From a virus, in the IMG/VR virus record IMGVR_UViG_3300032236_001850, positions 364,392 through 428,391 of that record: DNA of 64,000 nt; one strand, given 5' to 3'. Numbering within the stretch: position 1 is the stretch's first letter; each line of letters begins with the position of its first letter. The notes beneath the pieces are model-generated. The model was not told the origin of the DNA, searched no databases, and saw nothing but the letters and a program-made list of their open reading frames with translations. Shown one piece after another: positions 4,976 to 46,469 of the stretch. The position numbers and the translations under genes were made by a program.

Positions 4976-6517
4976 ATGTTAAAATTTAGAGTAACTGACG
5001 ATCATCAATGGATGCTCCTATTGGAAGCATTGGACGAGGTTGAGAAAAAACAGGTTGAGATATCTTTAACACAAAAGATACATAATCATTTTTTTCACCC
5101 TTTGGTGAAGAAAAAGATATGGGACGGATCAATATGTTTCATAGAAAAGAAGGGTGGATTTTGGAAGGTTCCAATAGGACTCTGGAGAGAACTTTTAGAT
5201 ATTGGAGAAAAATATAAAATCCAAATCAATATCGAGGGTCTGAATAATGTAATAACCAATGATATAAAACTTGAAGATTTTACTCAATGGGTTATGGAAT
5301 TCTTTGAAGGAGGGATTGGTGGAAATCCAGAAAAGATGCCAAGAGATTATCAAATAGAGACAGCATGGAAAATTCTTAGATATAGATATTCAGTTTCTGA
5401 GGTTGCTACATCATCAGGAAAAACACTTATTTCATTTATGATATTTGCTTATCTCAAATCTAAAGGTCTTGCTAGAAAGATACTTATGATCGTGCCAAAT
5501 TCCAATCTGGTTTTTCAGGGTAATGACGATTTTGAGGAATATGGTCTTGATAAATTGGATGGCGTTAAAATACAGCAAATTGGAGGCGGAAGTAAAATGA
5601 AGGATGGCTGTGATATTATAATAGGAACATACCAATCCCTAGTTAAGAGAGAATCTGATTTTTTCGAGGAGGTTGATTGTGTTTTTATAGATGAGGCACA
5701 TCATACCAATAGTACATCAATAAAGAAGATAGTTTCTCAATGTATGCATTCCAAATGGAGATTTGGCCTTACTGGAACTCTAACAAAAAAAGGGACTGCC
5801 GACTATCTAACAATCCAACAATTTCTTGGACCTTTAGTTATGGAAATACCTCCAAGTTTTCTTTTTGATAATGGATATGCAACTCCAGTTTCCATAAAGG
5901 TTGTCACTATGGATTGGCTTGATCCCGTTTATAAGGAAAAGCTAGCAGATTTAAAACTCAGCGACAATAATGTCGAGGGTAACGAAATTTATAATCTTGA
6001 AAGAAAATTAGTTATTGAAAGCAAGGTTAGGCTAAATTATGTTACAGATTTTATAAATAAAACCTCTAAAAATTCTCTTGTTCTTTTCCAATCAGTTAAG
6101 GAAGAATACGGTAAGCAAATATGGAATCTTCTTAGAGAATTAAATGGCGATAGAGAGGTGTTTTATGTCGATGGCGACACGAGTGAGGCTTTGAGAGAGG
6201 AATATAAGAGAAGAATGTCAATTGGCTCTAATAAGGTCTTAATTGCGACATACGGAACTTTCTCAACAGGTATATCCATAAATAACTTACATAATATATT
6301 TCTTGTTGAGTCCTATAAAAGTGAAATTTTAATTAAACAAAGTTTAGGTAGGGGAATGCGTAAGATGGAGGGCAAGGAAAAAGTTAATGTTATAGATTTC
6401 GTTGATGATTTTAGCACAAGAAAATATAAGAGCTATTTAGCTAAGCATAGTCTGGAAAGAATAGAAATCTACAAGAAGGAAGGTTTTGAATATAAGATTT
6501 ACAATGTTAAACTTTAA
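4976..6517 (+). CDS. uvsW: UvsW-like DNA/RNA helicase
   Basis: 513 residues of superfamily 2 helicase. Q-like motif PRDYQIETAW lies near 123, Walker A region ATSSGKT near 143-149, DEAH box FIDEAHH near 236, motif III GLTGTL near 264, and motif VI SLGRGMRKMEG near 455. T4 UvsW (503 residues) unwinds R-loops and remodels branched DNA, driving the switch to recombination-dependent replication. The N-terminal ~100 residues match the extra N-terminal domain of UvsW. Adjacent uvsY supports the name. Confidence 0.92.
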   Translation: MLKFRVTDDHQWMLLLEALDEVEKKQVEISLTQKIHNHFFHPLVKKKIWDGSICFIEKKGGFWKVPIGLWRELLDIGEKYKIQINIEGLNNVITNDIKLEDFTQWVMEFFEGGIGGNPEKMPRDYQIETAWKILRYRYSVSEVATSSGKTLISFMIFAYLKSKGLARKILMIVPNSNLVFQGNDDFEEYGLDKLDGVKIQQIGGGSKMKDGCDIIIGTYQSLVKRESDFFEEVDCVFIDEAHHTNSTSIKKIVSQCMHSKWRFGLTGTLTKKGTADYLTIQQFLGPLVMEIPPSFLFDNGYATPVSIKVVTMDWLDPVYKEKLADLKLSDNNVEGNEIYNLERKLVIESKVRLNYVTDFINKTSKNSLVLFQSVKEEYGKQIWNLLRELNGDREVFYVDGDTSEALREEYKRRMSIGSNKVLIATYGTFSTGISINNLHNIFLVESYKSEILIKQSLGRGMRKMEGKEKVNVIDFVDDFSTRKYKSYLAKHSLERIEIYKKEGFEYKIYNVKL

Positions 6518-6528
6518 TTTTTATTAGG

Positions 6529-6536
6529 GATATATA
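6529..6536 (+). promoter_or_regulatory. Late-type promoter motif GATATATA
   Basis: TTAGGGATATATAGAAA lies 19 bp before the ATG at 6555, right after uvsW. It heads the block from 6555 to about 10.6 kb. Confidence 0.55.
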
Positions 6537-6554
6537 GAAAAACATTTTTTAGCA

Positions 6555-7103
6555 ATGATTATAAAATCTTTTTCTGAATTTAACGAATCCAATCTGGATG
6601 AATCATATTATGATCAATATCACGAAACCCATGGTAAGACATCTTTTACCAGATGGCTTAGAAAAATAGGTGATAAAATAGGAATAGGAGATAGTGGATA
6701 TACCAGTTACTATGCAGATTCTGATCCCAATTCTGACGCTATACTTAGTGGGAGAAGAGCTATTGCAGCTACTGTAAGTGGACTCGCAAAAGGTACCGCT
6801 TCATTTATAGATTTTTTATCTCCTGGTGAAGATATAAAATCCTGGAAAGATCTTGACAAGGAAGAAATAAAAAGAAGAAAAGAGGAGATTATTAGAAAAT
6901 GGGAAGCTGAGCATATAGAGAATAAACATGTTACTGACCACGATGCCGAGGAATTTTATAAATCTGGAGTTCTTAGAGGGAAAAAATATTTTGGTAACGA
7001 TTTTAAGCCACAAGATCCTAAAAGTAAGGATGAAGAGATATACAGAGATTATCTTAGAGATGTAATGAATACCTATTATAGAAAAACCAAAAAGAAAAAA
7101 TAG
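6555..7103 (+). CDS. Unknown protein with capsid-targeting-like N-terminus
   Basis: 182 residues. The head MIIKSFSEFNESNLDES carries the shared F-x-x-F pattern followed by x-N-E/L-D-E, where a prohead protease could cut. The body has a short hydrophobic stretch (AIAATVSGLAKGTASFIDFL, ~62-81) and a long charged helix, and ends in a basic tail (RKTKKKK). No known domain. It follows a GATATATA motif and is 11 bp before the nucleotidyltransferase gene, so the two are co-expressed. Confidence 0.6.
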   Translation: MIIKSFSEFNESNLDESYYDQYHETHGKTSFTRWLRKIGDKIGIGDSGYTSYYADSDPNSDAILSGRRAIAATVSGLAKGTASFIDFLSPGEDIKSWKDLDKEEIKRRKEEIIRKWEAEHIENKHVTDHDAEEFYKSGVLRGKKYFGNDFKPQDPKSKDEEIYRDYLRDVMNTYYRKTKKKK

Positions 7104-7114
7104 GATGAGTAACG

Positions 7115-8035
7115 ATGAATAGGATACTCAATTTTTCTGATTTTATTTTTGAAGGTGGTGCTGCTATAAAAACTTCCAGAAGAATAAGGGAGGATGAATT
7201 TCCAGAAACACTGAAGAGTATACAGGAAAATCTTTTTCCGCTTATTGGTATGGTTCCTAGCAGAATCAACGATCAATATGTTGTTATTGGTAGTATAGGT
7301 AAAAAACAAAATCCCGAGGATACATCTGGTGATTTAGATATTGGTTATGATGCAATATGGTATTCACAGGATAATGGCATAGAGAAAAAGGAATGTTCTA
7401 GTTTTATTTATGAGAAAATAAAAAATGGGATTGGTGATGTGCTTGGATTTGTACCAGAGATTAATTATATGAGAGGACTTAATATAGTTAGTTTGGGATG
7501 GCCAATAAAGGGTGATGAAAATAACGGTTTGGTTCAGCTTGACCTTATTCCTTTATCTGATATGGCATGGGCTGATTTCATATATTATTCACCAAACTAC
7601 AAAGTTGGTGAGAGTAAATATAAATCCGCTCATAGAAACTGGCTTTTAGCTGCTATATTATCAGCTAGGAAGGAGATTAGAGAAAGAGATCAATTTGGTG
7701 AAATATTGGATTATGATACGCCTGTTCTTATTTTAAGTGATGGTCTATATTGGCACACTAAATCATATAGAGGTAAGATAAAAGACAGATTAAAGAATCC
7801 TAAAAAAATAGAGGGAAGCGAGAGATTTATCACTAATGATCCTCAGGAATTTATAGATTTTGCTTTAGGTAAAGGTTATACGGAAGATGACGTTAAAACT
7901 TTTGAGAAGTTATTTAATATAGTAATTTCACCTGATTTTGAATTAAAAGATAAATTACCAGAAATAAAGGAAAGATTTTTGGAATTTTTACAAAGAGTTG
8001 GACTAGAAATACCTACAGAGGTTAACGAAATATAA
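7115..8035 (+). CDS. Nucleotidyltransferase-fold protein with capsid-targeting-like N-terminus
   Basis: 306 residues. The head MNRILNFSDFIFEGGAA shows F-x-x-F and then I-F-E before Gly, a fit to a prohead-protease site. The body has polymerase-beta-like nucleotidyltransferase marks: GS at 59-60, DLD at 73-75 (SGDLDIGYD) and a third Asp in VQLDLIPL near 144. Family members transfer nucleotides to RNA, proteins or small molecules; the substrate here is unknown. Gene order (nucleotidyltransferase then ligase/NMN adenylyltransferase, 20 bp apart) suggests a joint task on RNA or NAD. The promoter is late type. Confidence 0.7.
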   Translation: MNRILNFSDFIFEGGAAIKTSRRIREDEFPETLKSIQENLFPLIGMVPSRINDQYVVIGSIGKKQNPEDTSGDLDIGYDAIWYSQDNGIEKKECSSFIYEKIKNGIGDVLGFVPEINYMRGLNIVSLGWPIKGDENNGLVQLDLIPLSDMAWADFIYYSPNYKVGESKYKSAHRNWLLAAILSARKEIRERDQFGEILDYDTPVLILSDGLYWHTKSYRGKIKDRLKNPKKIEGSERFITNDPQEFIDFALGKGYTEDDVKTFEKLFNIVISPDFELKDKLPEIKERFLEFLQRVGLEIPTEVNEI

Positions 8036-8055
8036 TAAACATTAAAAAGCTAATT

Positions 8056-10089
8056 ATGGCAGGCATCAGTCATTTATATGATATTTATAACAAAAAGGGT
8101 AAAGATTTTATTGATAATCTCTTTAACTCCTATGTGACAATTAATGAAAAAATGGATGGTTCTGCTTTTGTCTTTGAGAGAGATCCAGAAACGGGCAGAT
8201 TCAATTTTTACAAGAGGGATCAAAGATATCCTATAACTTTAGTTGATCGTACTTTGATGAAATACTACGAGAAGCCCATAAATTATATAGAATCTTTACC
8301 TCCACACATTCTTAAGGAAATTCCTAGAGGATGGAGATTTGGACTTGAATATTTTTCAAACAACCAACCTGTTGAAATTGCTTATGATAGATTACCTAAG
8401 AATAATCTGATACTCTCGTACATCCACACCAAAAACGATAATGGTAAACCTGCATCCACAATACAGGATCAGGAACAACTCGATAATTGGGCAGATTTAC
8501 TTGGTGTTGAAAGACCACCGATCATATTCCAGGGTATGTTAACTGATGATCAGAAAAATCAGATACTTGATTTTTTAAGAACACCCTTTGATCAATTAGT
8601 TTCTGAATTCAAGACTAAAAGCTTTGTTAGGTACATAATTGGGGTTCTTAATCCCGAAGCTAAAACAAGCGCACTTAATAACGATCTTGATAAACCGATA
8701 GAAGGAATAGTCTTTAGATTTGGTGAGGATGATAATGGTAAAGAACCTATTTTATCCAAAATGGTAGATCCGGTTTTCACCGAGATGGCCAAAGAAAAAT
8801 ATAATAAAAGATCGACTGAAAGACCTAGCGATTTTCTGGGTCTAACAATAATGGATATAATGAACTTCATTTTAGAGGAGGGAGTTGAATCTTTCAATGT
8901 TGCCGGCGATACTGATGATGAGAGATACATTTCTTTCATATCTGACGTTTTTGTTAAGTTTCTTTCGGAGTATGCCTATAAATACAGAGGAGCAGATTTT
9001 CAGGAACCTGAATATTTAAAGAAGGATGAATTCAGACTTAATCACGATATGATAAAGGATAAAAGAGTTCTTAAATATCTTGATACTGATGATTCTTACG
9101 AATCTCTATTCAAGCTTATGCTTAATTCTTTTAGAAAAATAAGAAAAAGAGCAAGCGGAATAATAACTCCCGGTATAATAGATCAATTTAATATAGTTGT
9201 TAGTGACATAGAAAGAGTTGTTTCTAAAGAACCTAAACCTGCTATACAAGAGTCCGAAGCTATACCATCATTCATGGATTTCAAGAAAAATAATCTGTCA
9301 TCTAAGAGAATAGATTATGTAACTAGCGAATCTGACAATTCTGAGGAAGCTGATACTGATGATCCATTTTATTCATATAACGAGTTCATATCGGCTCTAG
9401 AAACAATAGACACCACCAAGAAAGATAAATCAAAAGAAATCAACGAGGACACTGAGGAGGATAAAAAGAAACTTCAACCTGTTAATCTATTAGTTGGCAG
9501 ATTTCAACCATTCCATAATGGACATTTAAAAATGGTGGATCAGTTATACAAGGAAAATGATCTTCCTAGCATAATTGCAGTTGTGCATCCTGGTCATAAT
9601 AAATCCGGTAAATCCCCATATGATGAAAAATTAATTTCTCGATATATGGAGGGAATAGTTAGAGACAATCCCGGAAAAATAGCTGGCTACTTTGTGGTAA
9701 ATAGAGGTCTTCTAGGACCAATATACGGTAAGGCAAAGGAGCATGGATTTATTCCTAAAGTTATAGGTGCTGGTGATGATAGAATAGAAGATTATAATAA
9801 ACAAGCAGATTATCTTAAAAAAGCTGGAGGTGATTTTCCGGAGGATATAAAAATAGTGCAAACGAAGAGATCTTCCAGTGGAACCGATGTTAGAAAAAAG
9901 ATAGAAGCTGAAGATTATGTTGGTTTCAAGAAACTTGTTCCTCAAGCTGTAGCTAATGTTTATAACTCATTAATAGATGCCCAAAAAGGTAAAGGTATTA
10001 AGGAGGATGAAGAAAAAGAGTTTGATGAGTCGGAACTTATATCAGAATCCATAATCGCTGAAGAGATAGAAAAAAATAACCAAGAATAA
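8056..10089 (+). CDS. Fusion of RNA/DNA-ligase-like adenylyltransferase and NMN-adenylyltransferase-like domain
   Basis: 677 residues. The N-terminal part has covalent nucleotidyltransferase motifs: EKMDGS (motif I, Lys ~32), RFGLEYF near 95 (III), IEGIVFRFG near 215-223 (IV) and a Lys in PILSKMVDP near 234 (V). The C-terminal part has the cytidylyltransferase/NMNAT HxGH motif GRFQPFHNGHL near 480-490 and the late motif SSSGTDVRKK near 605, as in NadM/NadR. Residues ~400-470 are a charged linker containing IPSFMDFKKN, similar to the tag-like motif at the C-termini of two other proteins here. One domain would seal nucleic acid or adenylate a substrate; the other would make NAD or a related dinucleotide. 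The fusion is unusual. Confidence 0.8.
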   Translation: MAGISHLYDIYNKKGKDFIDNLFNSYVTINEKMDGSAFVFERDPETGRFNFYKRDQRYPITLVDRTLMKYYEKPINYIESLPPHILKEIPRGWRFGLEYFSNNQPVEIAYDRLPKNNLILSYIHTKNDNGKPASTIQDQEQLDNWADLLGVERPPIIFQGMLTDDQKNQILDFLRTPFDQLVSEFKTKSFVRYIIGVLNPEAKTSALNNDLDKPIEGIVFRFGEDDNGKEPILSKMVDPVFTEMAKEKYNKRSTERPSDFLGLTIMDIMNFILEEGVESFNVAGDTDDERYISFISDVFVKFLSEYAYKYRGADFQEPEYLKKDEFRLNHDMIKDKRVLKYLDTDDSYESLFKLMLNSFRKIRKRASGIITPGIIDQFNIVVSDIERVVSKEPKPAIQESEAIPSFMDFKKNNLSSKRIDYVTSESDNSEEADTDDPFYSYNEFISALETIDTTKKDKSKEINEDTEEDKKKLQPVNLLVGRFQPFHNGHLKMVDQLYKENDLPSIIAVVHPGHNKSGKSPYDEKLISRYMEGIVRDNPGKIAGYFVVNRGLLGPIYGKAKEHGFIPKVIGAGDDRIEDYNKQADYLKKAGGDFPEDIKIVQTKRSSSGTDVRKKIEAEDYVGFKKLVPQAVANVYNSLIDAQKGKGIKEDEEKEFDESELISESIIAEEIEKNNQE

Positions 10090-10092
10090 AAA

Positions 10093-10638
10093 ATGAAAAA
10101 ATTTATTGCATCGTTTGATCAATTTACAAATCCAATTAATGAAAATGATGGATTTGGTACATCACCATTCCTTATGAAAAAAGTAGGTGATGTTTATCAT
10201 TATTTTTTCAGTCTTGATAGTGAGGACGAAGAACATGAGATGGGATATCATTTAATTATAGGTAAATATTCTGAGAATGAACCTATAGAAGGTGCTAAAA
10301 ATTCATATTGTGTACTCAATATAAATCAGATAGGTCATGAGCTTATTGAAGATATAGCAGTAGATAAGGAGGATATACCTACTCCTGATACAACTGAATT
10401 TTTAGTTGATGGAAATGAGCTTTCAAGATTGGTGGAACAGATCTTTAAATGTGTTCTTGATTATCTTTCGTTGAATCCAAAGGTTGTTAGAATATATGAC
10501 AATTTGCAAGACAATCTGGAGTATAAAGGTAAAGGAGAATATATAGAATATATGAAGTCAATATGTGTGTCCAAACTTGGTAAAAATTGGTCCGTTCAAA
10601 ATGGATCAACACAAAAATCATTAATTTTAAGCAGATAA
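10093..10638 (+). CDS. Unknown protein with capsid-targeting-like N-terminus
   Basis: 181 residues, starting 3 bp after the ligase fusion. The head MKKFIASFDQFTNPINEN has two aromatic anchors and I-N-E, a possible protease site, at residues 16-18. The remainder is an acidic alpha/beta domain without recognisable motifs. It closes the 6555-10638 late-type unit. Confidence 0.6.
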   Translation: MKKFIASFDQFTNPINENDGFGTSPFLMKKVGDVYHYFFSLDSEDEEHEMGYHLIIGKYSENEPIEGAKNSYCVLNINQIGHELIEDIAVDKEDIPTPDTTEFLVDGNELSRLVEQIFKCVLDYLSLNPKVVRIYDNLQDNLEYKGKGEYIEYMKSICVSKLGKNWSVQNGSTQKSLILSR

Positions 10639-10691: not shown

Positions 10692-10871
10692 ATGGAAAAA
10701 TTCGAACAAATTAAGGCTCTATTAGAGCAAACACAAGGTGATGCTGAGAAATTTTTTAGCAAAGGAAACAGCGCAGCTGGAACTAGAGTTAGAAAAGCTA
10801 TGCAAGAATTAAAAGCTCTTGCTCAGGAAGTAAGAACTGAAGTACAAGATGCTAAAAACAAAGCAGCTTAA
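10692..10871 (+). CDS. Histone H1-like small basic protein (Hc1 family)
   Basis: 59 residues. The pattern EQIKALLEQTQGDAEKFF, then KGNSAAGTRVRKAMQELKAL, then QEVRTEVQDAKNK matches the short histone H1-like proteins found throughout Bacteroidetes. Those proteins bind and compact DNA. The gene stands alone between two AT-rich gaps with a possible late-type promoter. A phage copy could condense phage DNA, help shut off host transcription, or enter the head; none of this is shown by the sequence. Transfer from a Bacteroidetes host is likely. Confidence 0.8.
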   Translation: MEKFEQIKALLEQTQGDAEKFFSKGNSAAGTRVRKAMQELKALAQEVRTEVQDAKNKAA

Positions 10872-20240: not shown

Positions 20241-20909
20241 ATGGAAAACAACAAATGGTTTAATGACGATGTCATAAAAAAATTCGATGAATTTTTAAAC
20301 GAGAGAGAATTACCAGATTCTCAGGGGGATGTACTAGTTATGCTAGGAGCTCCTGGCTCCGGTAAAGGAACACTTTCAAAACAGCTGAATGAAAAATTTG
20401 GGATAAATCATATATCAACTGGTGATCTAATAAGAAAATCCGATGATCCTGAATTGAAGAAAATAGTTGAGTCAGGAAAGTTCATATCCGATGAAATGAT
20501 GCTTAAAATGCTAAGAAAAGAGCTAAAAAAGCTTGATCTTAATAAAGGTATAATTTTTGATGGATATCCAAGAACAATAAAACAAGCGAGAAAGCTTGAT
20601 TCGTTATTGGGTAAATTGGGTCTTGGTTTAAATCATGCTATATTTATGGATCTTCCGGAGGATAAGGCTAAGGAGAGAATAAGAAATAGAGCTAAGAAGG
20701 AGGGAAGAAAGGATGATGCAAGTGATGAGGTTATAGATAAAAGATTTGCCGAATATCACGAGAAAACTTTTCCTCTTGTTGATTTTTACAAGAAAAGCAG
20801 AAAATTAATAAAAATTGATGCTGATCTTGGTATGGAAGGAGTTCTTAAATCCATAGTTAAAAAGTTGGGTCTTAAAAAACCTAAAAAGAATAGAGATGAA
20901 AAAATCTAG
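20241..20909 (+). CDS. adk: Adenylate kinase with an extra N-terminal tag-like extension
   Basis: 222 residues. The kinase starts at VLVMLGAPGSGKGT (P-loop 36-44), then HISTGDLIR, the GIIFDGYPRT segment, a short lid (RAKKEGRKDDAS) and DKRFAEYHEKT. It interconverts adenine nucleotides or phosphorylates dNMPs for the neighbouring reductase. The 30-residue extension before the P-loop contains KKFDEFLNERELP, which looks like the capsid-targeting head with an L-N-E site, 12 residues inside the chain. Cleavage there would leave an intact kinase. No late-type box is seen nearby, so packaging is uncertain. Ends in a basic tail. Confidence 0.88.
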   Translation: MENNKWFNDDVIKKFDEFLNERELPDSQGDVLVMLGAPGSGKGTLSKQLNEKFGINHISTGDLIRKSDDPELKKIVESGKFISDEMMLKMLRKELKKLDLNKGIIFDGYPRTIKQARKLDSLLGKLGLGLNHAIFMDLPEDKAKERIRNRAKKEGRKDDASDEVIDKRFAEYHEKTFPLVDFYKKSRKLIKIDADLGMEGVLKSIVKKLGLKKPKKNRDEKI

Positions 20910-22874: not shown

Positions 22875-23408
22875 ATGAGACACCTTTTGGAATTTGAATC
22901 TTATGAAGGCTTAGATGAAGCTGGAATACCAATATATAATGCTGATGACTTTAGAAGGAGTCCTTCCAGTGAACCTGAGGATGAGGTATCAACCACTAAA
23001 ATCTTCTCCTATATAAAGGATCTATTGGAACAACAAAAAGCTGGACAGATAGAAGAAATCAGTATGACTGTGGATTTACCATTACAAGGTAAAAAAGCTC
23101 CACAACACGTTCTTGATACTCTTGACGCTGAAAGAAAAAGAATAGAGAAAGAACAGTATGCTATTAGAGGTAGCAGAACAGAAGCAGCTGATGTTGCTCC
23201 TGGTGATAATATCTACGGTGGTGAAGGTAGAAATCTTTTTGTTGATAGTGAGTATATAGTTACAGGAATCACCAATTTGGATGGAACAGATTACATTATA
23301 GGATTACCGGTTTCTAAGAAAAAAGAAGCTTTTAGTTCCCCTGAATCTATAGCTTATTATTCAACTTTTATAGAACCTAAACAAATAGAAGAAGTTTTTT
23401 ATTCATAG
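22875..23408 (+). CDS. Unknown protein with capsid-targeting-like N-terminus
   Basis: 177 residues. The head MRHLLEFESYEGLDEAGIP has F-x-x-Y and L-D-E before Ala. The rest is acidic alpha/beta with no known motif; the last ~60 residues (GGEGRNLFVDSEYIVTGITN) look like a small beta domain. Transcribed alone from a late-type box to a terminator. Confidence 0.6.
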   Translation: MRHLLEFESYEGLDEAGIPIYNADDFRRSPSSEPEDEVSTTKIFSYIKDLLEQQKAGQIEEISMTVDLPLQGKKAPQHVLDTLDAERKRIEKEQYAIRGSRTEAADVAPGDNIYGGEGRNLFVDSEYIVTGITNLDGTDYIIGLPVSKKKEAFSSPESIAYYSTFIEPKQIEEVFYS

Positions 23409-31929: not shown

Positions 31930-33405
31930 ATGATGATATCAAAAAATGTACTGGACTTTTCCTCTTTTCTAAACGAAGCAAAATCCAATGCTGTTCAGGT
32001 AATTATGCTAATAGGAGGTGGAACCAATGAGTTCTCAAGATCCTTTGAAGCAGAGTGTAAGAAGAAAAAAATAAAGGTAACTGTATTTGACGTTGATCTT
32101 GCCGAAGTTACCAGAAATAAAACCGGTGGTGGACACACAGTAACGGAAGGCAAAAAAATTGCTTCCATAGATCCATCAAATACTGTTGTTATTGCTAGAT
32201 CTGGGTGTCTTAAGAGCACACATAATAAGGAGCTTCTTATGGAGCTTGAAAATTCTAAATATTATGTTGTGAATAGATTAAGACCGATGGAAATATGTGA
32301 AAATAAATACATCACATCAGAGTTTCTTGAAAATTTAGATTTACCCGTTCCTAGATATTCTCTTATAGCATCTGAAGATCATATAGATGCAGCAGTTAAA
32401 AAAATCGGTGGTAAATTTCCAGTTGTTATGAAACTTCTTACTGGATCTCAAGGTATTGGTGTTTCCATTATTGATTCTCCAAATTCACTTAAATCTGTTT
32501 ATCAAACAATTAAAAAACTTGACGAGAAGAGTGAGGTATTAATACAGGAAAAAATAGAATCCAAATACGATCTAAGGATACATGTTATTATTAGAGACAC
32601 AAGTATTAAAAATATAAATAACACTGATAACTTCAAGGTTATTGGTGCTATGAGAAGAAATGCAGTTGGTAAGGATTTCAGAACAAATTATTCCCTTGGT
32701 GGAACGGTATCTAATGTTAAACTTAGTAAGGAAGTAATTGAAACAGCAATTAAAGCTGCTAGTGCAGTTGGATGTAATTGGTGTGGTGTTGATATAATGA
32801 TCGACGAGAAAACTAAAAAACCTTACATATTGGAAGTTAATTCATCTCCTGGTACTGAGGGCATATCTAAAGCATTAGGTAAACCTATTGTGGATGATGT
32901 TATAAAATTTGTAATGAACAGAGAAAATTGGGTTATACCTTCATCAGAAGTTGGTTACTTAGAGGTTATGGAAATAGAGGGTCTAGGTAAGGTGATAGCT
33001 AAATTTGATACTGGTAATGGTACTCTTTGTTGTTGTTTACATGGTGATAAATTGGAGGTTAAAGGTAAAACCTTACATTTCCAAATAGGTCATAAAAAAT
33101 TCACAAAAAAAATAACTGGATATACTGATGTTTCTGGTGGTATGCACACTAAAGGAACAAAGAAAATGCCAACGGTTAAGATGGATTTAAAATTTGATGG
33201 TGCATGGACAAAAGATGTTGATGTTGCAATAGTAGATAGAACAGATAAGAGCACACCATTTTTAGTTAATAGAAAAACTATGAGACAAATGAATGTTATA
33301 GTAAATCCAAACACAAAATTCATAGTTACTGAAAATTTTGACGATAGATATAGTCAATATACATCAAAAGGAAAACCTCATGCAGGTATTGAATTTGAAA
33401 AATAA
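31930..33405 (+). CDS. RimK-like ATP-grasp ligase fused to RimB-like retropepsin domain, with capsid-targeting-like N-terminus
   Basis: 491 residues. The head MMISKNVLDFSSFLNEAKSN has F-x-x-F and L-N-E before Ala (14-16); cutting there leaves the first strand of the enzyme (VQVIMLIGGG) intact. Residues ~20-330 are a RimK-type glutamate ligase: GKFPVVMKLLTGSQGIGV, LIQEKIESKYDLRIHVI, GAMRRNAVG and metal ligands in YILEVNSSPG. Residues ~335-470 match RimB-type (DUF785) aspartic proteases: GYLEVMEIEGLG, AKFDTGNGT near 360 and LVNRKTMRQMNV. RimK adds glutamates to ribosomal protein S6 and RimB trims them. Fusing both in one phage protein with a packaging tag is striking. Start could also be the second ATG at 31933. 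Confidence 0.82.
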   Translation: MMISKNVLDFSSFLNEAKSNAVQVIMLIGGGTNEFSRSFEAECKKKKIKVTVFDVDLAEVTRNKTGGGHTVTEGKKIASIDPSNTVVIARSGCLKSTHNKELLMELENSKYYVVNRLRPMEICENKYITSEFLENLDLPVPRYSLIASEDHIDAAVKKIGGKFPVVMKLLTGSQGIGVSIIDSPNSLKSVYQTIKKLDEKSEVLIQEKIESKYDLRIHVIIRDTSIKNINNTDNFKVIGAMRRNAVGKDFRTNYSLGGTVSNVKLSKEVIETAIKAASAVGCNWCGVDIMIDEKTKKPYILEVNSSPGTEGISKALGKPIVDDVIKFVMNRENWVIPSSEVGYLEVMEIEGLGKVIAKFDTGNGTLCCCLHGDKLEVKGKTLHFQIGHKKFTKKITGYTDVSGGMHTKGTKKMPTVKMDLKFDGAWTKDVDVAIVDRTDKSTPFLVNRKTMRQMNVIVNPNTKFIVTENFDDRYSQYTSKGKPHAGIEFEK

Positions 33406-46076: not shown

Positions 46077-46469
46077 ATGGAAAGAATAAAAAGTTTTGAT
46101 TTATTTGAGGATGAAAGTATTGGTCCTCCTGAACAAAAAATATACAGTAAATATTACCAGGGACCTTCTGCCTGGCCTACAGTTGTTGATGCGTTAGCTA
46201 TTATTAGTAAAAATCAAAACGGAGATGGAGATGGAGATGGTTTAGTAAAGCCATCACAGGAGCTAGTTGATTTTATTAAAGACAACAGTTCGGAGGATGG
46301 ATTAGATAGTTCAATAGCAGGATTTTTTACTGAAATATTGAAAGCAGTTAAAATTGCTAATAGTAGTTTATATACCAAACTGGGTGGAGAATCAATGATT
46401 AGAGCTATTGAGGGAATGCAGAACGATTACGTTGCTACCCACAACACAGATGGTACTAAAAAATTCTAA
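46077..46469 (+). CDS. Unknown protein with capsid-targeting-like N-terminus
   Basis: 130 residues. The head MERIKSFDLFEDESIG has F-x-x-F and L-F-E before Asp. The next gene begins with a near copy of it (MERIASFEQF), suggesting duplication of the tag. The body is helical and has a short Gly-Asp repeat (GDGDGDG). Function unknown. Confidence 0.6.
   Translation: MERIKSFDLFEDESIGPPEQKIYSKYYQGPSAWPTVVDALAIISKNQNGDGDGDGLVKPSQELVDFIKDNSSEDGLDSSIAGFFTEILKAVKIANSSLYTKLGGESMIRAIEGMQNDYVATHNTDGTKKF

Follow-up and report, generated by a model that had tools for sequence, protein, structure and literature searches.

Why does a huge phage keep a nucleotidyltransferase, and a ligase fused to an adenylyltransferase-like domain, in one short row of genes between two proteins of unassigned function? 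The row lies in a stretch of 64,000 nt (hereafter the window), which comprises bases 364,392-428,391 of the 434.5-kb IMG/VR record IMGVR_UViG_3300032236_001850; the source virus is, as its sequence reads, a T4-type huge phage of 434.5 kb. Four open reading frames (ORFs), here called A, B, C and D, occupy window positions 6555-10638 on the forward strand with intergenic gaps of 11, 20 and 3 bp, and this cassette begins 37 bp past a UvsW-like helicase gene (Table 1). A first-pass annotation of the same DNA had described the four genes as one cassette behind a single box, and the coordinates, the gaps and the box (GATATATA) were all confirmed. We propose tentatively, giving the idea somewhat less than an even chance, that the cassette is a late-expressed set of enzymes carried as cargo in the phage head for the repair of nucleic-acid ends, most likely those of RNA. 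Supported by the sequence are capsid-targeting tags, protease and capsid genes, a late promoter, three enzyme types, their co-conservation and co-decay, and the recurrence of the association in other phages.

Table 1. Coordinates of the cassette, its parts and related proteins (window positions unless a locus, L, is named)
Feature	Position	Strand	Description
Late-promoter box GATATATA	6529..6536	+	putative promoter of the cassette; tied genome-wide to tagged and virion genes
Gene A	6555..7103	+	182 aa, function unassigned; predicted N-terminal capsid-targeting tag MIIKSFSEFNESNLDE
Gene B	7115..8035	+	306 aa, predicted polX-like nucleotidyltransferase; catalytic D73, D75, D143
Gene B tag MNRILNFSDFIFE	7115..7153	+	predicted protease cut after E13; residues 1-15 disordered in model
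Gene C	8056..10089	+	677 aa, ligase - linker - HxGH adenylyltransferase fusion
C ligase domain	8056..9231	+	residues 1-392; motif I KMDG 8149-8160, EGIVF, SKMV
C linker	9232..9474	+	residues 393-473; predicted cut after E399; E425; two putative capsid-targeting motifs
C HxGH adenylyltransferase domain	9475..9999	+	residues 474-648; GRFQPFHNGH 9496-9525, GxDRxxxY, SGTDVR
Gene D	10093..10638	+	181 aa, function unassigned; predicted N-terminal capsid-targeting tag ending INE/NDGFG (slash, cut)
Ligase-fold pseudoenzyme relatives of C in 634-735 kb megaphages	L002:7836-9158, L003:7908-9263, L004:7962-9323		
DUF6267 (PF19782) with ligase motifs I, IV, V	L195:2848-3759, L280:2980-4179, L285:5478-6671		

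Capsid-targeting signals and late expression

Packaging of IPIII in T4 needs no more than its first ten residues, of which residues 4 and 7 do the targeting, and gp21 cleaves after L/I-x-E (PMC9026906). The N-terminal tags of A, B and D match these published rules and are therefore read as T4-type capsid-targeting sequences. The tag of B, FSDFIFE/GG (slash, predicted cut), has an aromatic residue, a Phe three residues on and then Ile-x-Glu, and A and D too have an N-terminal FxxF motif with a cleavage site behind Glu further on. Residues E13-G14-G15 of B were invariant in 26 homologues, most of which have L/IxE directly before GG. Relatives of B that have no tag start with MGG or MSG; they occur in Agrobacterium phage Atu_ph07, Sinorhizobium phage Phosso, the Lak phages, Moby, X1 and a Vibrio phage. 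Since the tag of B ends where these relatives begin, it appears to have been added exactly before the old N-terminus, and cleavage would restore that N-terminus. C has no N-terminal tag. Its signals would instead lie in the linker between its two enzyme domains, where we found two motifs, S405-F406-x-x-F409 (PSFMDF) and SYNEFISALE (residues 440-449). The linker was modelled as disordered except for short helices at 406-413 and 439-449, matching these motifs. F406 and F409 occur in all 37 homologues, and E399, E425 and F444 each in 36 of them; otherwise the linker was the least conserved part of C (0.49 vs 0.74 and 0.61). We infer two cleavages of C, one behind E399 and another ahead of the HxGH domain, by which the two enzymes would be released within the head. 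A, B and D had already been called tagged, which holds for their N-termini; the capsid-targeting identity of the tags had been missed and the linker motifs of C were not mentioned.

A Peptidase_S77 gene for a prohead protease of the gp21 type lies at 296.9 kb of the genome, and the gene for Gp23 at 299.1 kb. Tag-like N-termini were found on 14.8% of genome ORFs compared with 5.8% in internal control stretches, and this excess, about 15% against 6% expected, suggests that the phage probably packages many proteins. There are about 80 tag-like ORFs in the genome, with window examples at 20241-20909, 31930-33405, 22875-23408 and 46077-46469. The tagged candidates include, in the window, an adenylate kinase (20241) and a RimK-like ATP-grasp enzyme (31930) and, elsewhere in the genome, a DnaQ-like exonuclease (103412-104257) and an L,D-transpeptidase/Tlde1-like protein (229735-230541).

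The box GATATATA occurs 13 times in the window, where 5.8 occurrences were expected, and lies no more than 60 bp upstream of 10 of the 103 window ORFs (0.6 expected). Across the genome, 32 of 81 tag-like ORFs have it upstream, but of the 511 remaining ORFs only 36 do (odds ratio 8.6, p = 4e-13); these 36 include the prohead protease gene and a number of long ORFs of the tail or fibre-protein kind. GATATATA thus behaves as a putative late promoter of this phage group, and the enrichment before tagged and virion genes bears out the earlier description of a late cassette of tagged proteins. The spacing from the box to the start codon was either 4 or about 18-24 bp for the cassette and 67 other ORFs of the genome.

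The nucleotidyltransferase and the ligase

B contains the motifs GSIGKK...SGDLD...QLDLIP, of which G59-S60, D73, D75 and D143 were invariant in 26 homologues, and its predicted model (mean predicted local distance difference test score, pLDDT, 90; residues 1-15 disordered) aligned best with African swine fever virus (ASFV) PolX and DNA polymerases beta and lambda (Z 9.7-9.2, root-mean-square deviation (rmsd) 3.6-5), the PolX alignment having a Z of 9.7 and an rmsd of 3.6 over 166 residues. On this model B is a polX-like (pol-beta-type) nucleotidyltransferase. Foldseek alone was weak for B (E above 0.01, TM scores 0.33-0.38), although B matched an Atu_ph07 protein in BFVD at a TM score of 0.78, and profile comparison joined B with Atu/Phosso (98.9%) and with Lak (99.8%), and Atu/Phosso with Moby/X1/Vibrio (93%). 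Pol-beta nucleotidyltransferases have been described as acting with RNA ligases in jumbo phages, and the RlaP family is reported to associate with phage RNA ligases (Iyer et al., PMC7824862).

The first 390 residues of C (mean pLDDT of the C model 77.6) matched full-length T4 RNA ligase 2 by Foldseek (2hvr_A, E 1.1e-6; 2hvq, E 4e-6); the rmsd across domains was large, so that the match covers the C-terminal domain of Rnl2 and not the placement of the domains. Among the 50 best PDB matches for C were RNA ligases, HxGH-type enzymes and one stray, and no DNA ligase. Motifs I, III, IV and V (K32-x-D-G, with KMDG at residues 32-35; E98; E216-G217; K235) were invariant in 20 active C homologues, their order arose by chance in 0 of 500 shuffles, and Pfam RNA_ligase scored 23 bits (25.5 in another search) against a gathering cut-off of 27. 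The ligase of C is thus, by its modelled structure, Rnl2-like with an RNA-ligase-type fold. Searches of PDB sequences with the alignment profiles of B and of the ligase gave chance matches only, and both folds come from structure prediction. The nucleotidyltransferase (GS...DLD...D) that had been noticed in B is supported by its invariant catalytic positions, and the ligase fused to an HxGH adenylyltransferase is real by Pfam, fold and invariant motifs.

A polX-like gap filler next to a ligase recalls the PolX-ligase pair of ASFV, and by the same logic the cassette could repair ends or gaps in the DNA of the incoming genome. The resemblance of B to ASFV PolX and polymerases beta and lambda, its SGD-L-D signature, the position of the cassette after SSB-, primase-, UvsY- and UvsW-like genes, and a PD-(D/E)xK nuclease-looking protein that adjoins the ligase in several phages all fit this alternative. 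However, the fold resemblance of B comes at low TM scores, the nuclease was recognized by eye and had no Pfam match, the ligase of C resembles RNA ligases, the genome has its own separate ATP-dependent DNA ligase, and the HxGH domain would be left without an explanation. We place DNA repair second among the readings and consider it unlikely. RNA is favored over DNA because of the RNA-ligase fold, the separate DNA ligase, and the investment of the phage in RNA (31 tRNA genes and two RNA ligases besides that of C). The DNA alternative stays alive through the polX-like fold of B. RNA repair had been one of several guesses at the function of the cassette and is, given the RNA-ligase fold, the best supported of them.

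The HxGH domain and the question of NAD

The HxGH domain of C was recognized by Pfam CTP_transf_like (24.9 bits, cut-off 21) and keeps the GRFQPFHxGH (GRFQPFHNGH at residues 481-490), NPF and SxxxxR motifs. Its model (residues 474-647) resembled an archaeal NMN adenylyltransferase (NMNAT; TM 0.72, Z 15.2), NadD (Z 15.4) and PPAT (Z 14.4). Synthesis of NAD, NAD-RNA formation and defense against NAD depletion had also been suggested for the cassette. The domain would in that case act as an NMNAT that rebuilds NAD+ together with the NadV of the phage, either against NAD-depleting defenses or for ADP-ribosylation, a role that cyanophage papers propose as well (PMC9602691, PMC10665884). The nearest cellular sequences and folds are indeed archaeal NMNATs, the genome encodes NadV, and the domain is the only CTP_transf_like match in the genome.

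Other data weaken the NAD suggestion. The conserved Trp of NMNATs is the nicotinamide-stacking residue; 93% of 76 cellular NMNAT-like sequences have it, but none of the 27 phage sequences, which show an alignment gap there and share an invariant GxDR motif of their own. The archaeal NMNAT equivalog TIGR01527 scored 28 bits on the domain against a cut-off of 181, and PPAT folds fit nearly as well as NMNAT folds. HxGH was degenerate or absent in four phages that all keep NadV (LR756500, LR745206, LR756504 and LR756501) and present in cyanophages without NadV. This mismatch indicates that the HxGH domain goes with B and the ligase and not with NadV, and a domain serving NadV was rejected as the principal interpretation on co-occurrence. 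NAD supply ranks third in our estimate and is doubtful. When 85,000 cellular genomes were searched with C, the matches listed were all cellular NMNATs, and no ligase-NMNAT fusion was among them.

Co-conservation and co-decay

By a tblastn-type search, relatives of C turned up in 78 IMG/VR loci, mostly full length and 94-40% identical, and the gene order of the cassette recurred in about 70 loci. In nearly all of them the order was helicase, A, B, a gene of 140-160 amino acids (one clade only), C, D and an Hc1-like gene. On every contig that has B and is long enough, C followed B either immediately or after one intervening gene. The ligase lysine and HxGH are both retained in each of the 50 distinct C proteins that lie beside B and could be cleanly classified. 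A 51st (L166) has EKLDA, yet retains the ligase lysine and HxGH, and the contig that carries a 52nd (L117) has its frames broken. Eight distinct C proteins have no B in the sequence examined; seven of them have lost HxGH and five of the seven also lack the lysine, while the eighth (L024) has both, but with Gly in place of the motif Ia Arg. LR756500 has no B nearby, and its C reads ENLDG and FTLGH. In phages of 634-735 kb the ligase-fold relative of C reads EDIQG, lacks an HxGH domain and carries a targeting-like motif at its C-terminus. Since related sequences share their losses, this co-decay represents a handful of independent events, not 60. It suggests that B, the ligase and HxGH serve one pathway and that C is able to persist as a pseudoenzyme. 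Loss of the motif I lysine or of HxGH in homologues, which the first-pass annotation had named as grounds for refuting its idea, does occur in one distant clade and in the megaphages; as it always accompanies loss of the neighboring nucleotidyltransferase, a shared pathway is favored over a lack of function.

The persistence of C without its active sites raises the question of whether C is mainly a head-core protein in which the ligase fold serves as scaffold, its enzymes being incidental or vestigial. The megaphage proteins, which have neither motif I (EDIQG) nor HxGH and still carry a targeting-like motif, would suit such a structural role, as would the decayed L062 clade, in which the linker motifs of C are still kept. 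Against it stand the complete retention of Lys and HxGH beside B and the invariance of the Lys, EG and HxGH/R positions in the active set, and we regard it as the least probable of the readings, with a small chance of being right.

Several further features were seen in these loci. In the decayed clade, a tag-like DUF2201 metallopeptidase, a VWA protein and a tagged AAA ATPase lie between C and D (L064:10037-13518, L066). The 140-160 amino acid gene (L031:7546-7998 and relatives) ends just before C and persists where B is lost. In L022, an 855-amino acid ORF (6420-8984) stands at the position of C with no separate D after it, possibly an in-frame C-D fusion. The UvsW-like helicase of L005 (5520-6458) and L006 is apparently interrupted between DEA and HH by an apparent intein end (..NGILVSN-C).

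Recurrence in other phages and in virions

The association recurs elsewhere in other arrangements. Microcystis phage Mel-JY01 encodes a reversed fusion (WWT39297), HxGH first and then a KLDG ligase, and the huge phage LR756508 has a 915-amino acid protein with the same reversed order. In Stenotrophomonas phage Moby and Xanthomonas phage X1, four genes encode a B-like protein, the nuclease-looking protein, a KxDG ligase and HxGH, and Atu_ph07 and Phosso have a ligase plus a B-like gene. Vibrio phage phiKT1024 has a B-like gene, for which a ligase or HxGH neighbor was not established. In many cyanophages a KWDG gene (DUF6267, PF19782) lies directly 5' of an HxGH gene with a capsid-targeting N-terminus, and the phrog_455 profile joins DUF6267 and HxGH in the same order as in C; P-SSM2 and Bellamy have DUF6267 without an adjoining HxGH. 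Relatives of HxGH were found in 378 phage records and of DUF6267 in 470. Ligase motifs I, IV and V occurred in order in 12 of 13 proteins of these phages, and DUF6267 is probably an unrecognized ligase-type nucleotidyltransferase of cyanophages. The two domains of C might have been accidental neighbors; the fusions in both orders, the adjacency in unrelated phages and the co-decay with B answer this doubt in favor of a functional link.

The HxGH proteins of cyanophages S-SCSM1, S-SZBM1 and S-CREM2 were detected in virions by mass spectrometry, with the authors' warning that co-purification is possible (PMC9602691, PMC9146016, PMC10665884). We found that their N-termini (MKSFLQFLKEA, MRFRQFIIEA and MKNFSSFLTEA) are all capsid-targeting-like. 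The S-CREM2 virion list also includes gp156 (PMC10665884), a protein of nucleotidyltransferase fold (PF01909).

Proposed role of the cassette

In the scheme that we propose, A, B and D by their N-terminal tags and C by its linker motifs would be taken into the prohead, where a gp21-type protease would trim them after Glu, exposing Gly-Gly on B and possibly splitting the ligase of C from the HxGH domain. The capsid would hold the trimmed proteins, which probably enter the next cell by injection along with the viral DNA; for this phage, we infer packaging, cleavage and injection from the signals and genes described above. Within the new host, B, the Rnl2-like ligase and HxGH would work in one pathway that mends or remodels broken nucleic-acid ends, for example those of tRNA cut by host ribonucleases, with B restoring missing nucleotides and the ligase sealing the ends. 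The HxGH domain would make or resolve an adenylylated nucleotide needed in the same pathway. RNA as the substrate and the role of the HxGH domain are conjecture.

HxGH domains of this type and ligases both form nucleotide-adenylate pyrophosphate bonds. An injected set with an undescribed chemistry can therefore be imagined, in which HxGH and the ligase act successively on the same nucleic-acid end, a 5'-5' nucleotide cap is installed or removed and the polX-like enzyme supplies the terminal nucleotide, so that RNA or DNA ends are protected or repaired in the first minutes of infection; we consider this improbable.

Several observations weigh against head-carried repair of RNA ends. Motif V of C reads SKMV, or AKMV in homologues, without the second Lys of KxK. 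B had no match in Pfam to RlaP or polymerase X at an E value of 1, and the X-family DNA polymerases to which it is structurally nearest (Z 9.7) are as compatible with DNA as with RNA. Some phages retain C in pseudoenzyme form, and it may have a structural role too. Profile comparison of the C ligase with the ligases of Moby, X1, the cyanophages and Mel-JY01 gave no significant alignment; since these ligases cannot be aligned, we describe a repeated association by motif order and position and do not claim common descent. The ligase-like neighbors in cyanophages lack a capsid tag, and S-SZBM1_141 was not found among the listed virion proteins examined.

Genomic setting

A and D had no family match in Pfam, PHROGs, NCBIfam or PADLOC. 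Upstream of the cassette lie SSB-, primase-, UvsY- and UvsW-like genes, and just 3' of it (window 10692-10871) is a histone H1-like protein of the Hc1 family (Pfam E 5.8e-26) that is kept in relatives. The 31 tRNA genes, the two further RNA ligases, NadV and a second Gp23-like protein lie at 210-229 kb, 43.4 kb, 23.9 kb, 80.0-81.3 kb and 87.3 kb of the genome; no tRNA gene was found in the 64-kb window, next to the cassette or elsewhere.

Implications and comparison with known systems

The scheme would tie phage proteins now labeled 'hypothetical' or 'cytidyltransferase', including those of hundreds of cyanophage genomes, to the single idea of head-carried, injected enzymes acting on nucleic-acid ends. 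Three predictions follow: DUF6267 should be a ligase-type enzyme, the NMNAT-like virion proteins of cyanophages need not make NAD, and targeting signals may lie within a fusion protein. If it is true, phages bring repair enzymes that are ready before any gene is expressed, and host defenses that cut RNA or DNA would have to be weighed against repair enzymes delivered in advance.

The first-pass annotation knew of no described system of this composition. None was found in the literature searched, although the ingredients are widespread and NMNAT-like virion proteins have already been reported in cyanophages. The components, capsid targeting and virion NMNAT-like proteins are already known; the joint module, the internal targeting signals and the co-decay appear to be undescribed in that literature.

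Like B, RlaP and the X family have GS...GDxD...D motifs and a pol-beta fold; B differs in having no Pfam match to either and in its N-terminal Gly-Gly signature, and its closest relatives are unnamed proteins of Atu_ph07, Phosso and the Lak phages. T4 Rnl2 shares with C the fold over its full length, KxDG, the motif III Glu, the motif IV EG and the motif V Lys, whereas C scores below the Pfam gathering threshold, has KMV in place of KxK, and carries the HxGH fusion and capsid-targeting motifs. NadM, the archaeal-type NMN adenylyltransferase, resembles C in the GRFQPFHxGH, NPF and SGTxxR motifs and in fold (TM 0.72); C has no conserved Trp, has a phage-specific GxDRxxxY and failed the curated model. 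The 'cytidyltransferases' of phrog_395, phrog_3041 and phrog_455, among them the virion-associated NMNAT-like proteins of cyanophages, belong to the same HxGH family as C, with GxDR and SxxxxR, a targeting sequence directly before the domain and a ligase-motif gene upstream, but the cyanophage pairs are mostly separate genes, their DUF6267 cannot be aligned with the C ligase, and a B-type gene was not found alongside. The T4 internal head proteins (IPI-III and Alt) share with the cassette a short N-terminal FxxF...E signal, cleavage by a gp21-type protease and late expression. In contrast to these T4 proteins, the predicted cargo here is a set of nucleic-acid enzymes, the signals of C are internal, and about 80 tag-like ORFs occur in one genome.

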